Assembly: GCF_002210285.1 (NCBI RefSeq)
Contig: NZ_MWQE01000001.1
Span: 558,001-622,000, forward strand
Length of the DNA: 64,000 bases
Direction: 5' to 3'
Source of the DNA: Fibrobacter sp. UWR2
GTDB lineage: Bacteria; Fibrobacterota; Fibrobacteria; Fibrobacterales; Fibrobacteraceae
In this document: positions 14,775-18,862 of the stretch, one piece after another
Position numbering within the stretch: the first letter of the stretch is position 1
Layout: each line of letters starts with the position of its first letter
Made by a program: the position numbers and the translations under genes
The notes under the pieces: generated by a model
What the model was told of the DNA's origin: nothing
Seen by the model: the letters and a program-made list of their open reading frames with translations, nothing else
The model's database searches: none

Positions 14775-16190
14775 TTACTTGATGGCGATACGTTTCGCCA
14801 AACTTGCCGACCCAGAGCGCACACGTGCCACGTAGAGCCCTTCCGGAATGCCGTTCAATTCAACGAAACCCTTTTCACACTTGCCGCTGAATACCGAGCG
14901 GCCCTGCATGTCGAACACGTCGACCTTCGCTGCCTTTGCGCCTGCGATAAACAGTGTGTGTCCGGAAACATGCATGGAAAGGCTACCGGCAAGGCCGGCG
15001 ACCGTCCTAACCGCAATAGTTGAGTCCCCGACGTCGGTCGAATCCGTCCCGGTGGTGTCTATCGGGTCGACGATTTCTATGTCGCTATACGGGGAGACGA
15101 CATTTGCGGCCGGGTGTTCCTTGAGGCTTACCATGATGCTGTCATAAGCGGGCTTGGGCTTGTATTGCTTGTCGTAGAGGAGGCCTTCCGTCTTGCCCTG
15201 CTGCTCGTCGAGCCAGCTGTGCGCATCGGTCAGTCCCCAGATTACGAATTCGCCCATATTCGGTTCTTCGAGGAACACGTCCATGAACTGGCGATACAGA
15301 TGTCCCTGCTTTGCATAGTCGGCGGCGGTGAGTTTGCCGGATTCTCCTTTCGGGAATCCGATGTCAAGTTCGGTGATGTTGAGCGTCACGCCGAGTTCGG
15401 CGAACGCCTTGGCGAGGGCGCGGACATTCTGCGGTGTCGTTTCGTGCGCAATCTCGATGTGCGTCTGCGTGCCTACGCAGGTGATGGGAATGCCGTTCTT
15501 TTTCCAGCGTTTCACCTGTTCCACGACAAAGCTTGCCTTGGAGCCTTCGCGCAGCCCCCATTCGAGGGAATAGTCGTTGTAGCAGAGTTCTGCATTCGGG
15601 TCGGCTTTGTGCGCCCAGACAAATGCGGAATCGAGGAACTCGGCGCCGATGCCTTCGTACCATACGGAACCGCTGGAGCGCCAGTCGGCGTTATACTCGT
15701 CGTTTATGGCCTCGTTCACTACGTCCCATTCGGCGACCTGTCCCTTGTAATGCCCCACTACCTTCTCGATGTGGTTCTTGAGGACGGCGAGCAGTTTCTC
15801 CTTTTGCCCGGCGTAGTTGCTGCTGACCCATGCGGCAACCTGGCTGTGCCAGGCGAGGGCGTGGCCGCGCACGCGAATCTTGTTCGCCTTCGCGTATTCG
15901 ACCATCTTGTCGCCCTTGGTGAAGTTGAATTCGTTTTCGGCCGGTTCGGTGGCGTCGAACTTCATTTCGTTTTCCGCAACGACCACGTTGAACTGCGTCT
16001 TGTGAATTTCTTCGAATTCCGGTTCGATATCGTCGTTGAACCATTCGCTGTTCAGGATGGTGCCGATAAAGCGGCCGCGTTCCTTGGCGAGTTCCCTGAT
16101 GGTCGGTTCTGCGGCAATGGCGCTGGTGAATCCTGCGCCCAAGAGGGTTGCGCCGAGTGCGATTCCTATTGCGGATTTTTTGAATGTCAT
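14775..16190 (-). CDS. Secreted GH10 endo-1,4-beta-xylanase, copy 1
   Basis: Cleaves internal beta-1,4 bonds of xylan outside the cell. The start at 16190 has GGAGAGAA upstream and gives a signal peptide (KKSAIGIALGATLLGAGFTSAIA). The GH10 catalytic domain runs from about residue 30 to 350, with the acid/base glutamate in WDVVNEAIND and the nucleophile in ITELDIGFP. After a threonine-rich linker, the last ~70 residues (VDVFDMQGRSVFSG ... GLYVARVRSG) form a sorting-type domain like those used by type IX secretion. It is a tandem paralogue of the next gene, apparently from local duplication. Confidence 0.95.
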   Translation of the reverse strand: MTFKKSAIGIALGATLLGAGFTSAIAAEPTIRELAKERGRFIGTILNSEWFNDDIEPEFEEIHKTQFNVVVAENEMKFDATEPAENEFNFTKGDKMVEYAKANKIRVRGHALAWHSQVAAWVSSNYAGQKEKLLAVLKNHIEKVVGHYKGQVAEWDVVNEAINDEYNADWRSSGSVWYEGIGAEFLDSAFVWAHKADPNAELCYNDYSLEWGLREGSKASFVVEQVKRWKKNGIPITCVGTQTHIEIAHETTPQNVRALAKAFAELGVTLNITELDIGFPKGESGKLTAADYAKQGHLYRQFMDVFLEEPNMGEFVIWGLTDAHSWLDEQQGKTEGLLYDKQYKPKPAYDSIMVSLKEHPAANVVSPYSDIEIVDPIDTTGTDSTDVGDSTIAVRTVAGLAGSLSMHVSGHTLFIAGAKAAKVDVFDMQGRSVFSGKCEKGFVELNGIPEGLYVARVRSGSASLAKRIAIK

Positions 16191-16293
16191 CGTTCTCTCC
16201 GATTTTTTGCTAAAAATAAACCCAAAAAAGGAGAAAAAGGCCGTCGGGCGCGGCAAAAGTGTTGTAAGTCGTTGTTTTGCCTGTTTAAAATAC

Positions 16294-16326
16294 GGAAAAA
16301 GGCTACGACTGGAGTCGCAGCCTTTT
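16294..16326 (-). terminator. Terminator between the two xylanase genes
   Basis: A stem of AAAGGCT/AGCCTTT extended by CGACT/AGTCG, followed on the minus strand by T-rich sequence. It lies 20 bases after the stop of xylanase copy 2. The nearly symmetrical A/T flanks would let it work on both strands. Confidence 0.8.
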
Positions 16327-16345
16327 AGTGTAGAGGTGTAATGTC

Positions 16346-17752
16346 TTATTTTATGGCGATTTTTTGCACTAGGTTTCTAGAACCTTCGCGCACACGCACC
16401 ATGTAGAGCCCTTCGGCGACGTTCAGGTCGACAGCGCCCTTTTCGCACTTGCCGCTGAATACCGGGCGACCCTGCATATCGAACACGTCGACCTTCGCGG
16501 ACTTCATGCCGGTAATGAACAGTGTATGTCCGGCAACGTGCATGGTGACACTGCCCGGGCCTGCAGTCTGCGGAATCGCGATGGAGGTGTCCTGCACAGT
16601 CGTGTCCTTCTTGGTCGTGTCGGTGACGGTCGTATCGTTTGCAGTCGTATCTGTAGCGGCGGTGTCCTGCGGTGGCTCGAAGTTTTGGAGCCTCACCATA
16701 ATGCTGTCGAATGCCGGCTTCGGTTTCAAGTTGTCGTCGTAGATAAGTCCTTTTTGCCTGTTGAGCCCGCCAAGCCAGCTCCATTTGTCAGATACGCCCC
16801 AGATCAGGTACGTGTCCGCATTCGGCTCTTCGAGGATAATGTCCAGGTATTCACGGAAGGTCTTTCCCTGGCGTTCGAGGTCGCTCTGGCTCACGTTGAT
16901 GCCGCTCTTGAATCCGATATCGAGCTCGGTGATTTTCAGCTTGATGTTGAGCTTTGCAAGTTCCCTGGCAAGCGAGCGGAGGCTGTCCGGCGAACCGATA
17001 AAGTGCTTGTCGGTAGTGGTGTCCTCGACGTGCGTCTGTGAACCCACGCAATGGATAGGAATGCCGTTTGCGACCCAGCGCTTCACCTGTTCCAGCAAGA
17101 ACCCTGCCTTGGCTTTCGGGTTGACACCCTGCTCGAGGTTATAGTCGTTGTAGCAGAGTTCCGCATCGGGGTCGGCGGCGTGCGCCCACACGAAGGCAGA
17201 GTCAATGAACTCGGGGCCGATTCCCTGGTACCATACGGAGTAACCGCGCCACTGGGGCTCGTTGTTGCTGATGGCCTCGTTCACCACGTCCCATTCGTCC
17301 ACCTGGCCTTTCCAGTGGCCGACCACGTTGTTGATGTGGTTCTTGAGAACGGAGAGCAATTTTTTCTTGTCGTTCTTGTAGTTGTTTACCCAGTTCGGGA
17401 CTTGGCTATGCCAGGCGAGGGCGTGGCCGCGGATGCGCATGCCGTTCTGCTTCGCGTACTTGACCATCTTGTCACCGTTGCCGTAACTGAACCTGTTTTC
17501 GCTAGGTTCGGTCGCGTCGAACTTCATCTCGTTTTCGGCGACGACAATATTAAATTGCGTCTTGTGAATTTGTTCGTAGTTGCCTGGAAGGCCGCCACCA
17601 AACCACTGCGAGTTCAGAATGGCGCCGATGTAGATGCCGTTTTTTTCGGCGAGGGATCTTAGGGTTTCATCTGCGGCGAAGGTGGTTGAGAAGCCAACGC
17701 CAAGAAGGGTCACGCCAAGCGCGAGACCAGAGATTGTAAGTCTCTTTTTCAT
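16346..17752 (-). CDS. Secreted GH10 endo-1,4-beta-xylanase, copy 2
   Basis: A 468-residue paralogue of the neighbouring xylanase with the same order of parts: signal peptide (LTISGLALGVTLLGVGFSTTFA), GH10 domain with acid/base WDVVNEAISN and nucleophile ITELDIGFK, a linker of aspartate/threonine repeats (DTTANDTTVTDTTKKDTT), and a C-terminal domain containing VDVFDMQGRPVFSG and GLYMVRVREG. The C-terminal domain is nearly the same as in copy 1, while the catalytic domains have diverged more, notably in the loop after GSQTHVE. It has its own upstream region of about 220 bases shared with the divergent lipoprotein gene. Confidence 0.95.
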   Translation of the reverse strand: MKKRLTISGLALGVTLLGVGFSTTFAADETLRSLAEKNGIYIGAILNSQWFGGGLPGNYEQIHKTQFNIVVAENEMKFDATEPSENRFSYGNGDKMVKYAKQNGMRIRGHALAWHSQVPNWVNNYKNDKKKLLSVLKNHINNVVGHWKGQVDEWDVVNEAISNNEPQWRGYSVWYQGIGPEFIDSAFVWAHAADPDAELCYNDYNLEQGVNPKAKAGFLLEQVKRWVANGIPIHCVGSQTHVEDTTTDKHFIGSPDSLRSLARELAKLNIKLKITELDIGFKSGINVSQSDLERQGKTFREYLDIILEEPNADTYLIWGVSDKWSWLGGLNRQKGLIYDDNLKPKPAFDSIMVRLQNFEPPQDTAATDTTANDTTVTDTTKKDTTVQDTSIAIPQTAGPGSVTMHVAGHTLFITGMKSAKVDVFDMQGRPVFSGKCEKGAVDLNVAEGLYMVRVREGSRNLVQKIAIK

Positions 17753-17951: not shown

Positions 17952-17974
17952 TGAAAAAAAACCGGAGGATTCCT

Positions 17975-18862
17975 ATGAAGTATAGAATCGGTTTGATGGT
18001 GGCAGCCGCGTTTGCGCTGTGTGCTTGCAATCAGGGGCAGGAACAGTCCAAGGCGGGCGAGGGTAACGCACAGCCTGCTGCAGAGGCGGCAAAGCCTGTT
18101 GCGTCGAAGTCGGTTGTCGTGTATTATTCGCAGACGGGAACCACGAAAAAACTTGCTGGGGTCCTGCAGCAGGCGGTGAAAGCCGACGAAATTGAACTCC
18201 AGCTGGTGAACGCTTACCCCTCGACGTACGATAGCACGATTGCCGCGGTGGGTGCCCAGCGCGAAAGCAAGCAGTGGCCGGAACTTGCCAACGCAAGACT
18301 CGACCTTGCGAAGTACGATACGGTCTATCTGGGGTACCCCATCATGTTCGGGAGTTTTGCCCCGCCGATTTACACGTTCCTCGATTCGAACGACCTTTCG
18401 GGCAAGGTGGTCGTGCCGTTCTGCACATACGGAAGTGGCGGACGCAAGGCGTCTGCTGCCGAACTCAAGACGCTTGAACCGAATGCAAACGTGACGCTTG
18501 CGATGGGTGTTTCTAACAAGCGCATGTCCAGGGACGATGGCGATTCGATTGCGAAGGCCGAAGTGGAAACGTTCCTCGCGAACCTTGCCGCGGGCAAGAC
18601 GGACGAGATGCTCATGGGAGGCTATTCTGACCAGCGCCCGCTTACGGCGGAAGATTCTGCGGTGTTTGCCGCCGCGACAAAGGATTACGCCTACCTGAAG
18701 CTGCGCCCGCTGAGTGTCGCGACACAGGTCGTTGCCGGTACGAATTTCCTCTTTGTTTGCGAGACGAGCGGGTTCAACCGTCCACCGACCGAGACGATGG
18801 TGAAGATCTTCAGGCCTCTCCCTGGCCGTGGAGAGCCTGAACTGATTGTCATGGAAAAATAA
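17975..18862 (+). CDS. Lipoprotein with flavodoxin domain fused to a cystatin-like domain
   Basis: A 295-residue protein; the start at 17975 has GGAGG at the right distance. The signal peptide ends in a lipobox (LCAC, lipidated C18), followed by an alanine-rich linker. Residues 46-205 are a flavodoxin domain with the FMN phosphate loop VVYYSQTGTTKKLA, the strand YDTVYLGYPIMFG and the segment FCTYGSGG. Residues 211-295 look like a cystatin/stefin inhibitor domain: a glycine pair near its start (MLMGGYSD), the exact QVVAG motif (251-255) and the VKIFRPLPG hairpin. The flavodoxin part probably carries electrons at the periplasmic face of a membrane. The cystatin-like part suggests binding to a cysteine protease, but this is inferred from motifs only. 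Confidence 0.75.
   Translation: MKYRIGLMVAAAFALCACNQGQEQSKAGEGNAQPAAEAAKPVASKSVVVYYSQTGTTKKLAGVLQQAVKADEIELQLVNAYPSTYDSTIAAVGAQRESKQWPELANARLDLAKYDTVYLGYPIMFGSFAPPIYTFLDSNDLSGKVVVPFCTYGSGGRKASAAELKTLEPNANVTLAMGVSNKRMSRDDGDSIAKAEVETFLANLAAGKTDEMLMGGYSDQRPLTAEDSAVFAAATKDYAYLKLRPLSVATQVVAGTNFLFVCETSGFNRPPTETMVKIFRPLPGRGEPELIVMEK

Follow-up and report, generated by a model that had tools for sequence, protein, structure and literature searches.

The stefins, i.e., the family-1 cystatins (MEROPS I25A) to which stefin A and stefin B belong, have in common with the protein considered here a fold and three elements borne upon it, namely an N-terminal Gly, a QVVAG loop and a second loop of the Leu-Pro type. 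Classical stefins are intracellular and carry no signal peptide, and in true cystatins the second loop is Pro-Trp. The central residue of this loop, Leu in stefins as against Trp in true cystatins, separates the two types, and secreted stefins are also known (PMC9986714), such as FhCyLS-2 of Fasciola hepatica (PDB 6i1m), which comes from a ruminant parasite and bears a signal peptide. In Bacteria, stefins were recorded from eight phyla (17 genera) and cystatins from four genera, and a triplicated, fused cystatin was described in Polaribacter; bacterial stefins were proposed to defend against host proteases, and the Fibrobacteres were listed with neither stefins nor cystatins (Kordis and Turk, 2009; PMC2784779). 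As for flavodoxins, the Bacteroides Flavodoxin_4 proteins 4j8p and 4ici share domain family and fold with the other half of the present protein but have no stefin domain. Our literature search retrieved no earlier report of a stefin-flavodoxin fusion and, concerning cystatin domains in Fibrobacter, nothing relevant beyond Kordis and Turk (2009); the main text of proteomics papers on F. succinogenes S85 mentions neither flavodoxin nor cystatin.

The window analysed here, i.e., a stretch of 64,000 nucleotides from Fibrobacter sp. UWR2 (genome size 3.28 Mb, completeness score 100%), holds an ORF at 17975-18862 on the forward strand, with an ATG at 17975 and a stop codon ending at 18862, which encodes a flavodoxin-stefin lipoprotein of 295 aa and follows a ribosome-binding sequence, GGAGGA, read directly at 17964-17969 (+). 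From the N-terminus, all on the same strand, the protein comprises (i) a lipoprotein signal peptide with the lipobox LCAC (17975-18028), (ii) a variable linker reaching to about residue 43, (iii) a Flavodoxin_4 domain (residues 44-200; 18104-18574), and (iv) a stefin-type cystatin domain (residues 212-295; 18608-18859). Within the latter stand a glycine pair, G215-G216, the first contact element of stefins (18617-18622), a first hairpin loop, QVVAG (residues 251-255; 18725-18739), and a second hairpin loop, PLPGRGEP (residues 281-288; 18815-18838), lying between the last two strands. An earlier note made on this DNA had quoted the motifs MLMGGYSD, QVVAG and FRPLPGRGEP and called the protein a flavodoxin-bearing lipoprotein. 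The three motifs are present at residues 212-219, 251-255 and 279-288, respectively, and the remainder of that description also stands. The protein is a predicted lipoprotein, the cysteine to be lipidated, Cys18, being found in all 50 distinct fusion proteins aligned, with lipobox-like residues before it. Upstream, at 14775-17752 (-), are two adjoining genes for GH10 xylanases that weakly match type IX secretion C-terminal tails. The neighbourhood was considered as a clue and set aside: GH10 genes flank the fusion in some relatives only, the downstream gene and XPB neighbours are likewise common to some close relatives only, and the gene is thus not part of a fixed operon.

The flavodoxin half belongs to Flavodoxin_4 in both sequence and fold (Pfam, E 1.7e-18; phmmer to 4j8p, 7e-18; Foldseek to 4ici, 3.9e-12). 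Its phosphate loop, S-Q-T-G-T-T, is intact, and S52, G55 and T57 are each kept in 50/50 fusion proteins. The usual Trp pair, on the other hand, is replaced by Met-Phe: where the Bacteroides proteins have a YPIWW-type segment, 49 of the 50 fusion proteins read YPIMFG (PIMFG, residues 122-126; 18338-18352), a substitution which may change flavin stacking or redox potential. Another exported fusion of the genus, at L093 1666-3102 (-), joins an FGE-sulfatase (SUMF1-like) domain to a following Flavodoxin_4 domain, its gene clustering with others for carboxymuconolactone-decarboxylase/cupin-like and membrane proteins; a partial counterpart, L097, is present in the UWR2 genome. That a second such fusion exists in the same genus suggests that flavodoxin may simply be a customary base for envelope proteins there, and that its pairing with a stefin need not imply any particular tie between redox chemistry and inhibition.

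The C-terminal 84 residues belong genuinely to the cystatin superfamily, within its stefin type. Pfam alone misses the domain, the Cystatin model giving 12.5 bits (E 0.19) for a cut-off of 22.2, and on this score the resemblance could be read as chance, i.e., a short QVVAG match within an unrelated fold. Against such a reading, phmmer, queried with just this domain over the whole set of PDB chains, returned stefin/cystatin A as best match (E 4e-4), in an alignment spanning MIPGG to the LPG loop, wherein the conserved Gly near the domain start (G215, 49/50) aligns to MIPGG and the Leu-centred second loop (P-L-P, residues 281-283) to LPG. Circularity was avoided by building a profile from flavodoxin-fused domains only. 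Searched against the PDB, it gave cystatins as top matches, at 1e-6 to 5e-5 (multicystatin, 1e-6; secreted fluke stefin, 3e-6; stefin A, 3e-5), every match below 0.01 being a cystatin; adding the tandem Fibrobacter stefins to the profile brought the best value to 8e-9. The same fusion-only profile matched the stand-alone Fibrobacter lipoproteins described below at E 7e-41 to 1e-15 and did not match the shuffled sequences used as control. Pfam's Cystatin model scores two of these stand-alone lipoproteins above its cut-off (1.8e-13 and 1.2e-10), so that the domain has clear homologues recognised as cystatins by Pfam itself. The lipoprotein signal, with Cys18 in 50/50 sequences, departs from the intracellular state of classical stefins; since secreted stefins are known, a signal peptide does not bar the protein from the stefin type, though it is no classical stefin.

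Structure prediction agrees with the sequence searches. AlphaFold2 models the C-terminal domain alone with a mean pLDDT of 87, with four strands and a helical stretch arranged as in stefins, whose fold wraps a sheet of four to five strands around one helix. With VIA-align, comparison to stefin A and stefin B gave Z of 8.9-10.7, the value for stefin B being 10.7 with an rmsd of 1.9 over 80 residues. The forty best Foldseek matches, headed by FhCyLS-2, are all entries of the cystatin superfamily or structural relatives (e.g., latexin and fetuin), at E-values of about 1e-3 that are expected for so small a domain. In the model, QVVAG (model residues 44-48) sits where the chain turns from the first strand (37-45) to the second (49-57). 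The cystatin fold and the exposed QVVAG loop anticipated by the earlier note are thereby both borne out, and the chance reading, hardly credible at this point, is refuted by fold and profile searches together. In a model of the two domains together, the QVVAG loop is poorly predicted (pLDDT below 50) and the relative placement of the domains is accordingly not to be trusted.

Of the 50 distinct fusion proteins, 49 retain the three elements (Gly, QVVAG and LP), and the sole exception has lost them jointly. More precisely, G215, Q251, N257, P281 and P283 are each found in 49/50, and A254, G255, L282 and G286 are invariant (50/50). The exceptional protein (L046) has lost the Gly, the N and the two second-loop prolines, and its QVVAG segment bears a deletion and is without the Q, whereas another (L047), on a longer branch, has kept the contact elements; joint loss in the one and joint retention in the other fit three parts of a single contact edge. 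The ratio pN/pS is lowest at loop 1 (0.14), followed by the rest of the stefin (0.23), the flavodoxin (0.26) and the signal plus linker (residues 1-43; 0.60), values which serve as comparisons only because synonymous changes are near saturation. One cysteine in each domain is also conserved, namely C150 in the third flavin loop (50/50) and C262 in the stefin (49/50). An interdomain disulfide between them was considered but is unsupported: the stefin Cys persists in those stefins of the genus that have no flavodoxin, and L056 has lost it.

With respect to distribution, a stefin domain occurs in 71 of the 168 Fibrobacterota genomes, i.e., 68 of the 80 from the genus of the window, two from a sister genus and one from another family of the order; in the remaining 12/80 genomes of the genus, no stefin was detected. 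The flavodoxin fusion itself, which the earlier note had suggested looking for in other bacteria, is present in most Fibrobacter genomes (65/80) and in three relatives. Among the latter, the fusion in a genome assigned to a different family (L039, G091) branches inside the main Fibrobacter group with 66% identity, as a result either of gene transfer or of a misassigned metagenome contig. Three genomes of the genus (G063, G125 and G159) lack the flavodoxin fusion and have only lipoproteins bearing one, two or three stefin domains, one of these being joined to a FISUMP domain. These stand-alone proteins (L052 5123-5701, L053 4429-5745, L054 3909-4961, L083 5028-5855 and L084 4685-5095) are confined to genus members lacking the fusion, and their existence indicates that the stefin is a unit of its own, not dependent on flavodoxin. 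One fusion-bearing genome also encodes, at L085 3743-4297 (+), a protein of 184 aa that lacks an obvious signal peptide and contains two repeats distantly resembling stefins (QVVNGTNY and QVTKGVNY). In the UWR2 genome, further weak matches to the stefin domain were dismissed as chance, one having in-frame stops (C4) and the other overlapping ftsH (C10). The named relatives returned by protein search are all Fibrobacter metagenome-assembled genomes, several of them from rumen or other ruminant stomach samples. Among phages and viral contigs, no relative was found; the plasmid search gave two stefin-type matches, in Aureibacter and Persicobacter, and with the full protein the plasmid matches cover about half its length, i.e., the flavodoxin part only, such that plasmids, phages and viral contigs yielded no instance of the fusion. 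The Aureibacter tunicatorum protein (L086) has two stefins, both halves being matched by the fusion-only profile, and no flavodoxin.

The reading we favour, with a probability of roughly 0.6, is that of a lipid-anchored protein of the cell envelope in which a flavodoxin, predicted to be of the FMN type, carries a stefin that would block papain-family proteases from outside the cell. By analogy with eukaryotic stefins, papain-family (C1A) proteases would be blocked reversibly by a wedge that enters their active-site cleft and is composed of the LP loop, the QVVAG turn and the N-terminal Gly; the retention of these contact elements, while the linker varies freely, counts for inhibition. The flavodoxin would probably be an exported carrier, to which the inhibitor is attached as a portable shield. 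Likely targets would be ciliate cathepsins of the rumen or gut; papain-like proteases from forage plants, or enzymes of the host such as its cathepsins, are equally possible. As the UWR2 genome has no recognisable match to Peptidase_C1, C1_2 or C13, the inhibitor would face enzymes from elsewhere. In the transcriptome of the rumen ciliate Entodinium caudatum, C01A peptidases are highly expressed, and several highly expressed cysteine proteinases have predicted signal peptides (PMC6925433). Together with the lack of an own C1 target, this expression strengthens the idea, already put forward in the earlier note, that the protein may protect the cell from protozoal proteases of the rumen or gut. 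Counted against this reading are the score under the Pfam cut-off, the genus members in which no stefin was detected and the want of a signal peptide in classical stefins. Moreover, a lipoprotein facing the periplasm would miss outside proteases unless these cross the outer membrane, and a shield leaves the choice of flavodoxin as partner unexplained, the role of the flavodoxin being the weakest point of the proposal.

The stefin fold could instead be retained for binding or docking on behalf of the flavodoxin and no longer for inhibition, e.g., to hold a redox partner or to dimerise: almost all carriers have the stefin joined to a redox domain, the structural neighbours include cystatin folds that do other work (latexin, fetuin, monellin), and the conserved C150 and C262 could hint at communication between the domains. 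Yet the elements kept are exactly the Gly, QVVAG and LP, with the strongest constraint at loop 1, and the flavodoxin-free stefins share the same motif and Cys, neither of which therefore needs the flavodoxin; docking alone thus appears rather unlikely, if a serious contender. A coupling of both functions, in which the stefin would dock on the protease cleft and the flavin of the flavodoxin alter the redox state of the catalytic cysteine, i.e., a redox-coupled surface inhibitor, seems very improbable.

Inhibition could also be directed inwards, as staphostatins and chagasins are thought to guard against the cysteine proteases of their own cells. By that analogy, the stefin might restrain a protease of Fibrobacter itself, and short partial Peptidase_C1 matches do exist in a few other Fibrobacter genomes, as do full C1 enzymes in some relatives outside the genus; but the genome bearing the present gene, at a completeness score of 100%, gave no match to the three families mentioned above and most fusion-bearing members of the genus are also without C1, which makes an own target improbable. 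A search of the same genome for Peptidase_C10 carries no weight either way, its control having matched nowhere.

Stefins, which have been seen as mainly eukaryotic and patchy in bacteria, are hereby extended to a whole genus of dominant fibre digesters of the herbivore gut. Should inhibition of C1A proteases hold true, it would provide a concrete and testable way for a prey bacterium to resist digestion by ciliates, or for its surface enzymes to be shielded from plant and host proteases, and would bear on the turnover of bacterial protein in the rumen. Compared with stefin A and stefin B, the Fibrobacter protein, known from sequence and model, is bacterial, predicted to be exported, lipid-anchored, and has its stefin placed behind a flavodoxin. 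FhCyLS-2, also among its best sequence matches, is by contrast a free secreted animal protein with two disulfides, neither fused nor lipidated. For the bacterial stefins surveyed by Kordis and Turk (2009; PMC2784779), distribution was patchy and no flavodoxin partner was described, whereas the fusion gene reported here is widespread in one genus; it nonetheless fits their idea of defence, to which it brings a new phylum, a new partner domain and wide conservation within a single genus.
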